Shown here: one piece after another, positions 48,548 to 52,549 of the stretch
Layout of the letters: each line of letters starts with the position of its first letter
Numbering within the stretch: the stretch's first letter is position 1
From: Paracoccaceae bacterium
Lineage (GTDB): Bacteria; Pseudomonadota; Alphaproteobacteria; Rhodobacterales; Rhodobacteraceae
Assembly: GCA_033344815.1 (NCBI GenBank)
Contig: JAWPMR010000001.1
Coordinates: 2,776,136-2,840,135 of the forward strand
Reading direction: 5' to 3'
Length of the DNA: 64,000 nt
Translations under genes and position numbers: made by a program
Notes under the pieces: model-generated
What the model was told of the DNA's origin: nothing
Seen by the model: the letters and a program-made list of their open reading frames with translations, nothing else
Databases searched by the model: none

Positions 48548-51500
48548 ATGGAATCCTCTCTTTTCGCGTTTATTTGGAAGTTTTCCAAACGGGAACAACT
48601 GTTTCTGTTGTTCTTTACGCTGTTCACATTTCCATTTCTCTACGCGACGTTGGAACTGCCCAAGCGCATTATCAACGACGCCATTGGTGCGCAGGACAAC
48701 AGCATTGACATGTTGGGGTACACGCTGACCCAAACGGAATTTCTGATGGCGCTGTGTTTTCTCTATCTGGGCGCAGTTTTGTTGCACGGGTTGCTCAAAA
48801 TGCGTCTGAATACGATGAAAGGCGTGTTGGCGGAACGGCTTTTGCGGCGATTCAGGTACCGATTGATTACGCGCATGACGCGTTTTCCCCGCGCATATTT
48901 CCGAAGCACCAGTCAGGGTGAACTGGTTTCGATGGTCACATCCGAGGCGGAGCCGATGGGTGGGTTGATGGGGGACGCGGTCGCACAGCCAGTTTTCCAG
49001 GCAGGACAAATGTTGATCATCGTGGTGTTTCTTTTTGCCCAAAGCATCTGGTTTGGTCTTGCCGGTGTCGCCCTGATCCCGCTGCAGGCCTATATCATTC
49101 CGATCCTGCAGCGTCAGATCAACCAGTTGAACAAAAAACGTATCGTTGAAGTGCGGCGGTTTTCATCCGAGATTGGTGAAACGGCTGCCGGTATTGGCGA
49201 CTTGCGTACAAATGGTGGTCTGCGTTTCCGACTGGCCGGTTTTACGGATCGTCTCGGGCGTCTTTTCGAAATACGTTTTCAGATTTACCAGAAAAAGTTC
49301 TTCATGAAGTTTCTAAACAACTTCATCACACAACTCACGCCGTTCTTTTTCTACTCGGCAGGGGGGTATCTGGCAATCAAGGGCGAAATCACTGTTGGGG
49401 CGCTTGTTGCGGCGCTGGCCGCTTACAAAGATCTGAGCTCTCCCTGGAAAGAGCTATTGGCTTACTACAACCAGGTGCAAGACATGTCGCTGCGCTGGGA
49501 GATCGTAACCGAGCGTTTTGCGCCCAAAGGCATGATTGATGAAAAACTGATGGAAGGTCAGCCGGATGAGATACCCCATCTGGAAGGCGCGATTTCGATC
49601 AAGAACGTGACCGTGCGCAATTCTGACGGGAACGCCGTTATTGAGAATATCAACCTGGAAATACCGGCTGGCGCGCGCGTTGCCATTCAGGCCGGTAGTC
49701 AGATTGAACGTACCGCACTGGCCGAAGTTCTGACGCGGGAGGTCATGCCCGCACGCGGCAGTGTCACGATCGCAGGGCGTGATCTGGCGGAATTGCATCA
49801 GTCGGTGATCGCTGCACGCATCGGATATGCTCATTCCAGACCCTATCTTTTTGACGGCACGTTGGGAGACAACCTCCTGATGCCACTAAAAACGAGCCCG
49901 AAAACAGTTTTGTGGGACCCAAATAAAAAGGATAGAAAAACCATCGAGGCCGAACGGTCCGGCAACAGTCATGACAGCATGCAGGCCGACTGGATTGACC
50001 CCGGATTGGCGGGGTTGAATACTGCCGAAGAAATCCGCGGCTGGTGGTTCCAATTGGTTGAAGCCATGGGACTTGATGAGTTCATGTTTCGCCGGATGCT
50101 CACAACACGGATAGACCCGGAAATACATGGCAAGCTTGCCGCCTCTGTGGTTGCGTTGCGCGAGGAAGTCTATGAAAAGCTTGTTGGGCGCGACCTTGAC
50201 GGCTATGTGAACCGGTTCAACCCGGAGGAATTCAACCCTTCCATCCCGCTTGGCGGGAACTTGATGTTTGCCTCGCCTAAACGGGATATCTCCCAACGCG
50301 GCCTTGCGGCGGAACGCAGTTTTCTGGCGTTGATTTCCGAGCTTGGTCTTGCTGAACAAGGCATCGCTATTTCGCAAACACTGATCGAAACACTGCACCA
50401 GACTTTTGGCATGGACGGGACTAACCACCCGCTTTTCACGGCGCTTGGTATCGAAGAAGACCTTTATGAAAGGCTGGTGGATATTGCTACGCGCCGTCAT
50501 GAAAAGGGCGATCAGGCCCTGACTGAGGAAGAATTCTCGCTCTTGCTTACCGTGCCCTTTGCCTTCACCGCTGAGCAGATCGGACCGGGTTTTCCGGAAA
50601 GCTTCAAACAGGAAATCCTGGAGATACGCCGGTCAAAAAGCAAGGAAATGCGCGAAGGAATGAAAGGGTTGTTTGTGCCTGTCGCCATGGAAAACTACCT
50701 GCCGCGTCTCACCTTGATGGAAAATGCGCTTTACGGTCGGATTTCGGCGATTGCTGGCGTACAGGGTGAATTGATCGAAGACTTAGTTGCAGAAGTGCTG
50801 GCAGAACACGATCTGAAGCGTCAGGTTTCAGAAACCATCCTTGACATCAGAACAGGTCTGGGCGGCACGAATTTGGCAAGTGTATTTCAGGAACGAGCCG
50901 CGTTCAGCCGCGCGGGTATCAAACGTCCGGATGTTCTTATACTGGATACGGTTTTGGCCAGTCATGATGCGAATAACCGAAAACAAACACGAGCCAAATT
51001 GCGAGATCTGCTGCCCAAAGCCACCATGGTTTTCCTCGAAGACAAATTTGAGAACCCAACAGCTTATGATATGTTCGTCGAGATCAAAAACGGTCGAATA
51101 GATGGTGTTGAACAGCCAGAATCGCACGATAACGAAGACAGCGGATCAGATGATCTGCGCCGCAAGATCAGGGTAATTTCACGTACAGATCTGTTTGCCA
51201 ACCTGGATTCACGCAGTCAGCGACTACTGGCATTCTCGGCACAGTGGTACAAAGTCGAGAAAGACAAGCGGATCTTCAGCCGCGGAGAGCGTGCAGATGC
51301 CGCATATCTTTGTCTGTCTGGTTCCGCATTGATGGGGTATCACGATGAAGATGGCACATGGCATGACATAGGCACCGTTGAACCGGGTCGCCTGATAGGC
51401 GATTTGTCCATCATCCTTGAGGAGACCCGCCAACTCGATTTGGTCGCGCTGGAGGAAAGCAAGTTCTTGCGGATTGGAGCCGAAGAATTCAGGTCTGTTA

Positions 51501-51637
51501 TCGAGACCGACCCGGCCGTTCTCATGCACCTCTTGCGCACTGTCGCGGGACATTTGACCGGTGCGGCAGAACTCTTGAGAGATGCGCGTGTGAGTGTGCC
51601 TCTGGAGAACCAGACCGATGCAAAGTCGGACGCGTAA
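48548..51637 (+). CDS. ABC-exporter-like membrane protein with decayed ATPase and cNMP-binding domain
   Basis: A 1029-residue protein. An ABC type-1 membrane domain fills about 20-300 (EAEPMGGLMGDAVAQPVFQA, several hydrophobic segments). The nucleotide-binding domain starts near 345 but is degenerate: the Walker A position reads AIQAGSQIERTAL (no GK[ST]), the signature position LGGTNLASVFQ, and Walker B DVLILDTVLAS lacks the catalytic Glu. A segment of about 270 residues (about 445-715) is inserted after the first Q-loop-like stretch HSRPYLFDGTLGDNLL. Residues about 880-1000 form a Crp-type cyclic-nucleotide-binding fold (GEPRLIGDLSI-like: PGRLIGDLSIILEE). The protein probably does not hydrolyse ATP; it may be a cNMP-gated or sensing membrane protein. 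The ATG at 48548 is preferred; an in-frame start at 48491 also exists. Confidence 0.8.
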   Translation: MESSLFAFIWKFSKREQLFLLFFTLFTFPFLYATLELPKRIINDAIGAQDNSIDMLGYTLTQTEFLMALCFLYLGAVLLHGLLKMRLNTMKGVLAERLLRRFRYRLITRMTRFPRAYFRSTSQGELVSMVTSEAEPMGGLMGDAVAQPVFQAGQMLIIVVFLFAQSIWFGLAGVALIPLQAYIIPILQRQINQLNKKRIVEVRRFSSEIGETAAGIGDLRTNGGLRFRLAGFTDRLGRLFEIRFQIYQKKFFMKFLNNFITQLTPFFFYSAGGYLAIKGEITVGALVAALAAYKDLSSPWKELLAYYNQVQDMSLRWEIVTERFAPKGMIDEKLMEGQPDEIPHLEGAISIKNVTVRNSDGNAVIENINLEIPAGARVAIQAGSQIERTALAEVLTREVMPARGSVTIAGRDLAELHQSVIAARIGYAHSRPYLFDGTLGDNLLMPLKTSPKTVLWDPNKKDRKTIEAERSGNSHDSMQADWIDPGLAGLNTAEEIRGWWFQLVEAMGLDEFMFRRMLTTRIDPEIHGKLAASVVALREEVYEKLVGRDLDGYVNRFNPEEFNPSIPLGGNLMFASPKRDISQRGLAAERSFLALISELGLAEQGIAISQTLIETLHQTFGMDGTNHPLFTALGIEEDLYERLVDIATRRHEKGDQALTEEEFSLLLTVPFAFTAEQIGPGFPESFKQEILEIRRSKSKEMREGMKGLFVPVAMENYLPRLTLMENALYGRISAIAGVQGELIEDLVAEVLAEHDLKRQVSETILDIRTGLGGTNLASVFQERAAFSRAGIKRPDVLILDTVLASHDANNRKQTRAKLRDLLPKATMVFLEDKFENPTAYDMFVEIKNGRIDGVEQPESHDNEDSGSDDLRRKIRVISRTDLFANLDSRSQRLLAFSAQWYKVEKDKRIFSRGERADAAYLCLSGSALMGYHDEDGTWHDIGTVEPGRLIGDLSIILEETRQLDLVALEESKFLRIGAEEFRSVIETDPAVLMHLLRTVAGHLTGAAELLRDARVSVPLENQTDAKSDA

Positions 51638-51649
51638 GGGGAGCGGCCG

Positions 51650-52549
51650 ATGTTTTCGCGCGACGCATACCGCCCGCATGAGCAGTTGCTGAACCCGGTC
51701 CGGGAAACCGCGCAGGTCTGGCGATTGATCATAGGTCTGATCATCGCATCAGGGGTTTACCTGATCTGCAACCAGACGATGTTTCGCACGCTTTACACGT
51801 GGCAGGGCAACAACGCGCCGGCCTTTTCGGAGGTTTTGGTCGCGGGTTCAACGCCCCTTGCCATGTTTATTTTGCTGGCAAGTTTTGGGTTCATGATACT
51901 CGGTGTGGCGATTGCTCTGAGGGTTGCGCACAAACGCGGATTTGCGGATGTCTTTGGTGATCGGGCAACCTGTTTTGCACAAATGCGGGCGGTGCTCGCC
52001 ATTCTGCTGTTGATCAATCTCGTGGTTTGGATCCTGCCGCCCTGGGATATGGGTGCCCCGCTTGTATCCAATATGAACTTGGGCACATGGCTGATACTAT
52101 TGCCGATCTCTTTGACTGCGGTGCTCATTCAAGTCAGCGCAGAGGAAGTTCTGTTTCGGGGCTACATTCAGCAGCAATTGGCGGCGCGGTTCAGTTCCCC
52201 GCTGATCTGGATGCTGGTGCCAGCGGTTTTGTTTGGGTTTGGCCACTATATGCCGGAAGAGGCCGGCCCGAATGCCACGGCAATTGCGATTTGGGCGGTT
52301 GTATTTGGGATTTTGATGGCGGATCTAACGGCGCGCGCCGGAACGCTCGGTCCTGCAATCATTGTGCATTTTATCAACAATGTTGTCGCGATTCTGATCA
52401 TATCAATGCCTGACAATCTGTCGGGCCTCGCCCTCTATCTAAGTCCGTTTTCCATGGGTGACAGTGACGCAGTGCGCGCATGGTTACCTGTTGACTTCGG
52501 GTTCATGATCGTCAGCTGGCTCGCTGCGCGCCTGGCAATTCGGCGTTGA
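51650..52549 (+). CDS. CPBP-family intramembrane glutamic endopeptidase
   Basis: A 299-residue membrane protein with about eight hydrophobic segments. The CPBP (Abi) motifs are present: EEVLFRGYIQQQL (EExxxR), FGFGHYMP and HFINNVVAI. Relatives include the prenyl-protein protease Rce1 and bacteriocin-immunity proteins. It starts 12 nt after the ABC-like gene with GGGGAG as ribosome-binding site, so the two are likely cotranscribed and may work at the same membrane process. Confidence 0.87.
   Translation: MFSRDAYRPHEQLLNPVRETAQVWRLIIGLIIASGVYLICNQTMFRTLYTWQGNNAPAFSEVLVAGSTPLAMFILLASFGFMILGVAIALRVAHKRGFADVFGDRATCFAQMRAVLAILLLINLVVWILPPWDMGAPLVSNMNLGTWLILLPISLTAVLIQVSAEEVLFRGYIQQQLAARFSSPLIWMLVPAVLFGFGHYMPEEAGPNATAIAIWAVVFGILMADLTARAGTLGPAIIVHFINNVVAILIISMPDNLSGLALYLSPFSMGDSDAVRAWLPVDFGFMIVSWLAARLAIRR

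Follow-up and report, generated by a model that had tools for sequence, protein, structure and literature searches.

A conserved ABC exporter family with a degenerate ATPase domain and a Crp-type cyclic-nucleotide-binding partner in Alphaproteobacteria

The gene described here lies on the forward strand at positions 48548..51637 of a 64,000-nucleotide (nt) stretch of Paracoccaceae bacterium DNA (GCA_033344815.1, contig JAWPMR010000001.1, positions 2,776,136 to 2,840,135), hereafter the window; it encodes a 1,029-residue protein in which an ABC exporter with degenerate ATPase motifs is fused to a Crp-type cyclic-nucleotide-binding (cNMP) domain. Translation, Pfam, phmmer, and genome searches place it in clade A of a wide family of bacterial membrane proteins, with distant relatives across the class (Alphaproteobacteria). 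We propose, with a little less than even confidence, that it is a conserved but catalytically dead exporter (pseudo-ATPase) in which the membrane domain would be the working end and the cNMP domain the control input. Since the ATP machinery is lost and a cyclic-nucleotide-type domain is present, the family probably works unlike ordinary pumps; the window protein is most likely controlled by a cyclic nucleotide without ATP hydrolysis, and it is probably a transporter or flippase. The new observations are the constant pairing with a cNMP domain, an inverted pattern of conservation, a duplicated insertion without a known fold, an invariant phosphate-binding cassette, and relatives reduced to the membrane domain; no description of the family was found in the open-access literature among the matches listed.

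Domain layout and loss of the ATPase motifs

The frame most simply starts at ATG 48548, and its stop ends at 51637; the mechanical open reading frame (ORF) opens upstream at GTG 48491. Three Pfam families match the protein, ABC_membrane (PF00664; residues 64-290, 1.6e-18, 67.8 bits against a cutoff of 28), ABC_tran (residues 366-460, 4.6e-6, aligned to the profile's first half alone), and cNMP_binding (PF00027; residues 903-988, 1.7e-13), with no further match at E ≤0.1, and the curated families of Pfam and NCBIfam match parts of the protein only. The ABC type-1 (exporter) membrane domain (residues 1-330, 48548..49537), delimited by Pfam, conservation, and the structure model, is the best-conserved part. 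It is followed by a degenerate nucleotide-binding domain (NBD) in two halves: the first (residues 345-447, 49580..49888) is placed by Pfam, the alignment to the solved exporter PCAT1, and motif alignment, and the second (residues 741-856, 50768..51115), located by alignment, holds the signature, Walker B, and H-loop places, the phmmer alignment to PCAT1 resuming after a gap at about residues 768-851. The Crp-type domain (residues 865-1010, 51140..51577) rests on Pfam and a PDB chain match. This order, an ABC type-1 membrane domain, a motif-poor split NBD, and a Crp-type end, had been proposed in an earlier note on the DNA and is borne out by Pfam and alignment.

None of the aligned motif places is canonical. 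The Walker A place ('ARVAIQAGSQIERTAL', 49673..49720), found by alignment and motif scan, has no GK[ST] and reads AGSQIERTA against GxxGxGK[ST]; the Q-loop place reads AHS, the signature place LASVF, the Walker B place VLILDT (catalytic Glu to Thr), and the H-loop place LEDK (His to Asp). GK[ST], SGG, and a hydrophobic run followed by DE are all absent from the entire 1,029-residue protein, so the motifs were not merely overlooked; misassigned canonical motifs are likewise ruled out, as the scan offers no alternative. We aligned 148 distinct full-length members, 82 from clade A, 32 from clade B (paralogues), and 34 distant ones (W), the last set including L186 and L187, which resemble the family in the NBD plus insertion only. 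The clades were split by identity to the window protein (A, ≥53%; B, 44 to 53%), and residue 952 divides them identically. The Walker A Lys is kept in 0/82 A, 0/32 B, and 15/34 W members, the Walker B catalytic Glu in 0/82, 0/32, and 12/34, and the H-loop His in 0/82, 0/32, and 6/34; the signature Ser survives in 1 of the 82 clade A members, the residue after the Walker A Lys (the Ser/Thr position) is Glu or Asp in 24 of the 34 W members, and no member of the 148 has a complete set. The losses are thus conserved, with 0/114 in clades A and B, and do not reflect decay of a single strain. Intact Walker A and B motifs in homologues, which the earlier note had taken as a sign of such decay, are lacking from both clades and occur partially in W, never as a full set. 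The Walker A Lys has undergone at least five changes on the membrane-domain tree, so its loss is recurrent; the tree is read as unrooted, since no branch set the outgroup apart from the rest.

Motif degradation in several lineages, with these repeated Lys changes, is also what ordinary decay of a former exporter heading for loss would produce, but that explanation is contradicted by conservation and has next to no probability in our view: full-length frames occur in 82 + 32 members, synteny is conserved, and the ratio of nonsynonymous to synonymous substitution rates (dN/dS) is about 0.04. Over the whole gene, dN/dS is 0.037 to 0.043 against three congeners (L009, L010, L013), indicating purifying selection; the ratio is rough because dS is 1.7 to 2.6 in these comparisons and saturated in that with a fourth congener (L012), which gave no value. 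The frame is maintained, as first suspected from its length, and a pseudogene or strain-level decay was rejected in view of the conserved motif loss across members together with purifying selection.

Each ABC ATP site combines the Walker A and B motifs of one NBD with the signature of the other; with all of these gone from the same chain, no homo- or heterodimer containing the window protein has a consensus ATP site. This counts against the idea that the protein pairs with paralogue B or another ABC protein as the degenerate subunit of an ATP-driven exporter heterodimer. In favor of that idea, exporter heterodimers with one weak site are common (TM287/288, TmrAB), and a canonical ABC importer operon lies near four rhizobial loci and the Azospirillum locus. 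In a hand-read match table of 292 genomes of the order, clade A occurs in 62 and clade B in 70, and the joint presence of both in 53 would suit such a pair; however, 17 genomes hold only B and nine only A, although the limit of two candidates per genome, which applied to the order, class, and phylum searches, meant that B could not be scored in G002, a genome among the nine whose two A copies filled both places. Paralogue B is, moreover, equally dead (0/32), and no exporter subunit appears among the annotated neighbors, many neighbor clusters having been left unannotated. We regard such a heterodimer as improbable, and an obligate one with paralogue B was set aside since genomes with only one paralogue exist.

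Conservation of the membrane domain and the helical insertion

In sampled clade A pairs, mean pairwise identity is 77% for the membrane domain, 59% for the NBD core, and 53% for the insertion; the corresponding values are 79%, 59%, and 53% for B pairs and 48%, 34%, and 36% for W pairs, and membrane-domain identity exceeds that of the NBD in 800/800 A, 496/496 B, and 497/561 W pairs. In the control, a canonical exporter of the window genome with 31 orthologues, the NBD averages 78% identity against 74% for the membrane domain, and it equals or exceeds the membrane domain in 419 of 465 pairs. Conservation in the family is therefore inverted relative to a normal exporter, the membrane domain evolving more slowly than the NBD; dead motifs combined with a slow membrane domain argue that a membrane function is kept. 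Loss of transport, which had earlier been suggested as a possibility, is unproven: a retained membrane function accounts for the strong conservation of the membrane domain at least as well as a pure sensor or scaffold would.

Relatives consisting of the membrane domain only were found at 17 loci. A well-supported group of six rows of the tree nests among the full-length members, with a weak placement support of 81, and CusF-type or multicopper oxidase genes lie at several of its loci. It is the conservation of the membrane domain, together with these NBD-less relatives, that leads us to prefer a transporter or flippase over a pure receptor. In one membrane-only set (L043-L047, L190, L191), membrane-domain identity is about 40 to 46%, and genes of the multicopper oxidase, CusF-type, cytochrome c, or outer membrane efflux kinds occur at several of the loci; a further set of exporter membrane domains (L048-L050, L193, L195-L197, L199) diverges more, is 305 to 400 residues long, lacks an NBD, and is found in scattered contexts. 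The membrane-only set as clustered (18) also contains one fragment of a B-type copy that is broken into two frames (521 + 462 residues) in one metagenome-assembled genome (MAG; L153:6052-9006).

The insertion that splits the NBD (about residues 448-740, 49889..50767) has about 293 residues; the split itself had been recognized in the earlier note, at a somewhat shorter length of about 270. When predicted alone (residues 443-740), it yields a mostly helical model with a predicted local distance difference test (pLDDT) score of 86.5, answering that note's call for a structure prediction, and a fold search of this model against the PDB returns nothing at E ≤0.001 (best E, 1.0); a known domain was rejected on this ground and on the lack of an extra Pfam domain at E ≤0.1. 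HHalign delineates two repeat copies within it (residues 528-578, 50129..50281; residues 684-733, 50597..50746), which match each other firmly (98.6%, E 5.8e-16). Each unit closes with a '(Y/F)NP..xLxENLLFG'-like motif resembling the '..PYLFDGTLGDNLLMPL' stretch after the Q-loop; because the first NBD segment (Q-loop unit) matches the copies weakly, at 76% and 59%, an origin of the repeats in that segment is a guess. The full-protein model (pLDDT 82.5) resembles ABC exporters in Foldseek, with target template modeling (TM) scores of about 0.58 to 0.61 for PCAT1 (0.60), TmrAB, and the cyclic beta-glucan transporter CGT; the top rows by E value are P-glycoproteins with TM scores near 0.2.

The cyclic-nucleotide-binding domain and the proposed mechanism

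The cNMP domain is a constant partner of the full-length proteins. It is fused in clades A and B, and among 42 distant full-length loci it is fused in frame in 8, encoded in a separate adjoining downstream stretch in 34, and absent from none. The 42 comprise 36 loci from genomes (one per species) and 6 from named plasmids, or 37 and 5 when plasmid H70 is counted with the genomes, and take in L168, L173, L183, L070, L072, L075, L082, and L083; a domain was scored as separate when its match lay on the same strand and started ≤317 nt past the end of the exporter match with at least one stop between. Five of the 34 separate cases are annotated rhizobial plasmids (Rhizobium leguminosarum, Sinorhizobium sp., Mesorhizobium sp., S. 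meliloti, and R. johnstonii 3841) with the same gene order, and in Azospirillum ramasamyi the cNMP match falls within the same gene. The fused and separate states require at least two changes on the tree. No cNMP gene lies beside any of the 17 membrane-only loci. One protein grouped with the separate cNMP genes (L039:11346-13787), encoded about 2 kb downstream from a member of the family, combines FAD/NAD oxidoreductase, cNMP, and 4Fe-4S domains.

The closest solved structure to the domain is PDB chain 5d1i, 'Cyclic nucleotide-binding protein' (5.2e-14). In the residue census of clades A and B, the phosphate-binding cassette (G951-D952 ... R961, 51398..51430) keeps its Gly and Arg (G951, R961) in 114/114 members (82/82 A, 32/32 B), and residue 952 is Asp in 82/82 of clade A and Glu in 32/32 of clade B; we take this Glu/Asp and the Arg to be the residues that bind the cyclic-nucleotide phosphate. 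The Asp of clade A could also be read as the mark of a purely structural dimerization part that works without a cyclic nucleotide, in a protein acting as a constitutive ATP-independent transporter or a structural envelope protein. That possibility is unlikely, as the Arg and the Glu/Asp are invariant in all 114 members and several distant fused members carry the full textbook cassette GELALL...RTAT. The window genome has three homologues of class III nucleotide cyclases, which were counted in favor of cyclic-nucleotide control. A nucleotide cyclase gene also lies near the Mesorhizobium and S. meliloti loci, which is weak evidence because rhizobia have many cyclases.

For the dead exporter under cyclic-nucleotide control that we favor, binding of cAMP or cGMP would shift the conformation, the pseudo-NBD with its helical insertion would serve as the coupling element between the cNMP domain and the membrane domain, and the membrane part would open, close, or assemble, moving an envelope lipid, a glycan, or another solute without ATP hydrolysis. 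A broader formulation seems to us rather unlikely: that these are Alphaproteobacteria-wide ABC-fold transporters in which a second messenger replaces ATP, the dead ATPase, whose Q-loop segment would have been duplicated and expanded into a new helical fold, transmitting gating by the cAMP/cGMP domain to the membrane domain.

Several observations weigh against a dead exporter under cyclic-nucleotide control. Three of the 34 W members retain the Lys, signature Ser, Glu, and His and are close to intact, and one W member retains the Lys, Ser/Thr, signature Ser, and Glu; ATP binding or cleavage may persist in such near-intact distant members. In 64 of the 561 W pairs, NBD identity equals or exceeds that of the membrane domain, and descent from this family is uncertain for the more divergent membrane-only group, given its long branches and the misbehaving outgroup. 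On the side of the control input, many Crp-type domains bind no cyclic nucleotide, the cassette Glu is replaced throughout clade A, and no cNMP gene lies beside three divergent loci with only the NBD plus insertion (L186-L188). Two of these, L186:6456-9296 and L187:6701-9298, have no Pfam membrane-domain match either. The predicted TM-score (pTM) of the whole chain is only 0.67, and the glycosyltransferase cassette described below lies near 0 of the 85 A/B loci tested.

Gene neighborhood, distribution, and known systems

An Rce1-like CPBP glutamic intramembrane protease (51650..52549, forward strand), assigned by Pfam, NCBIfam, and the neighborhood census, begins 12 nt past the stop; its translation shows the EExxxR, FxxxH, and HxxxN motifs. 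The recurring clade A order is ilvD < gene > CPBP > accD, with a CPBP match 2 to 135 nt downstream of the stop in 68/80 loci and accD within 1.5 kb in 72/80. The CPBP gene is missing from 12/80 A, 30/30 B, and 34/34 W loci, so the family does not share it as a partner; the link is operon synteny limited to clade A, and the working partnership that the earlier note had suggested is not supported as stated. This neighbor also enters the proposal that the protein is a membrane receptor or scaffold, which has lost transport, responds to a membrane ligand and to a cyclic nucleotide, and controls partners in the way that SUR controls a channel, perhaps the CPBP protease in clade A. The death of every ATPase motif agrees with such a role, the new-fold insertion would suit protein contacts, and the downstream CPBP gene would supply a partner in most clade A loci; yet its absence elsewhere and the position of the membrane domain as the most conserved part speak against it, and we consider it possible but doubtful.

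A glycosyltransferase cassette (at least two of three rhizobial GT28-like/GT4-like relatives) lies near 14 of 30 W loci, and these neighbors of distant members are the sole hint that suggests an envelope glycan as substrate. The window genome keeps relatives of the cassette in a separate region (G000:C1:3468000-3481500, L244), where GT28-like, GT4-like, GT2, and polysaccharide flippase genes stand with a gene for a divergent channel of the MscS type, about 840 residues long. In these neighborhood data, script gene calls are greedy ORFs from the first start codon, with some N termini too long, and the clade A clustering set (85) contains repeats of one sequence.

Besides this gene, the window genome (5.08 Mb, one contig) carries one full-length paralogue, which is 50% identical. 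The latter, paralogue B (G000:C1:661102-664131; L002, L038), is equally degenerate and cNMP-fused, without a CPBP gene alongside; a PUCC-family gene about 3.5 kb from it suggests an aerobic anoxygenic phototroph. Named relatives include Roseobacter, Ruegeria, Sulfitobacter, Tateyamaria, and similar genera, which makes the order Rhodobacterales. In the class search, 178/385 genomes match at E ≤1e-15, a threshold that lets ordinary exporters through as well, and 129/385 at E ≤2e-72 by hand count, a few of these being membrane-only or partial matches; the next best lies near 1e-24. A phylum search of 398 genomes with a distant relative as query gives 32 matches at E ≤1e-40, of which 31 fall within the class and the single one outside is membrane-only.

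Type IV ABC exporters (MsbA, PCAT1, TmrAB, CGT) are alike in membrane domain and NBD fold by phmmer and Foldseek; unlike them, the window protein lacks the Walker A, Walker B Glu, signature, Q-loop, and H-loop residues, its NBD is split by a domain of about 293 residues, a C-terminal cNMP domain is added, and conservation is inverted. SbmA/BacA peptide transporters, which have an exporter-like membrane domain without an NBD, are a precedent for ATP-independent transport; the window protein has no SbmA_BacA Pfam match at E ≤0.1, retains a pseudo-NBD, and adds a cNMP domain. CFTR and SUR are ABC exporters turned channel or channel regulator that kept nucleotide-responsive NBDs, whereas in this family a separate cyclic-nucleotide domain would provide the nucleotide input. 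Some NHLM bacteriocin exporters carry a cNMP domain, with intact catalytic motifs; their family TIGR03796 is the second-best NCBIfam match (121.7 bits against an equivalog cutoff of 853.3, not reached) and consists of ABC exporters. In SLC9C1 (PMC6052114) and in cyclic-nucleotide-gated channels, a membrane transport domain is likewise joined to a gating cNMP domain. Their membrane fold is unrelated to that of ABC exporters. Two rhizobial genes could not be tied to the family locus: SMb20813, named as the S. meliloti msbA homologue (PMC10945364), as the pSymB records show no features there, and pRL110056, listed as an O-antigen gene important in root colonization (PMC11103875), as the pRL11 record has new tags only.

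If the proposed control is real, ABC exporters, which are ATP machines, would have become ATP-independent devices under messenger control in a large class to which marine Roseobacter and rhizobia belong. The family would then offer natural material for separating the mechanical role of the NBD from the role of ATP, and possibly a direct cyclic-nucleotide signaling route to the envelope that bypasses transcription. In the rhizobial plasmid records consulted, these genes are labeled as coding for ATP-binding or membrane-domain proteins of ABC transporters.

Two minor observations concern individual copies. MAG contigs labeled Granulosicoccus or Gammaproteobacteria (L117, L121, L125, L131) hold members that are 54 to 57% identical, through either misbinned contigs or transfer. 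Owing to a sequencing error or a real difference, the S. meliloti 1021 copy (NC_003078.1, 841723-844435) aligns one base longer than the 2011 copy (NC_020560.1, 841727-844438).

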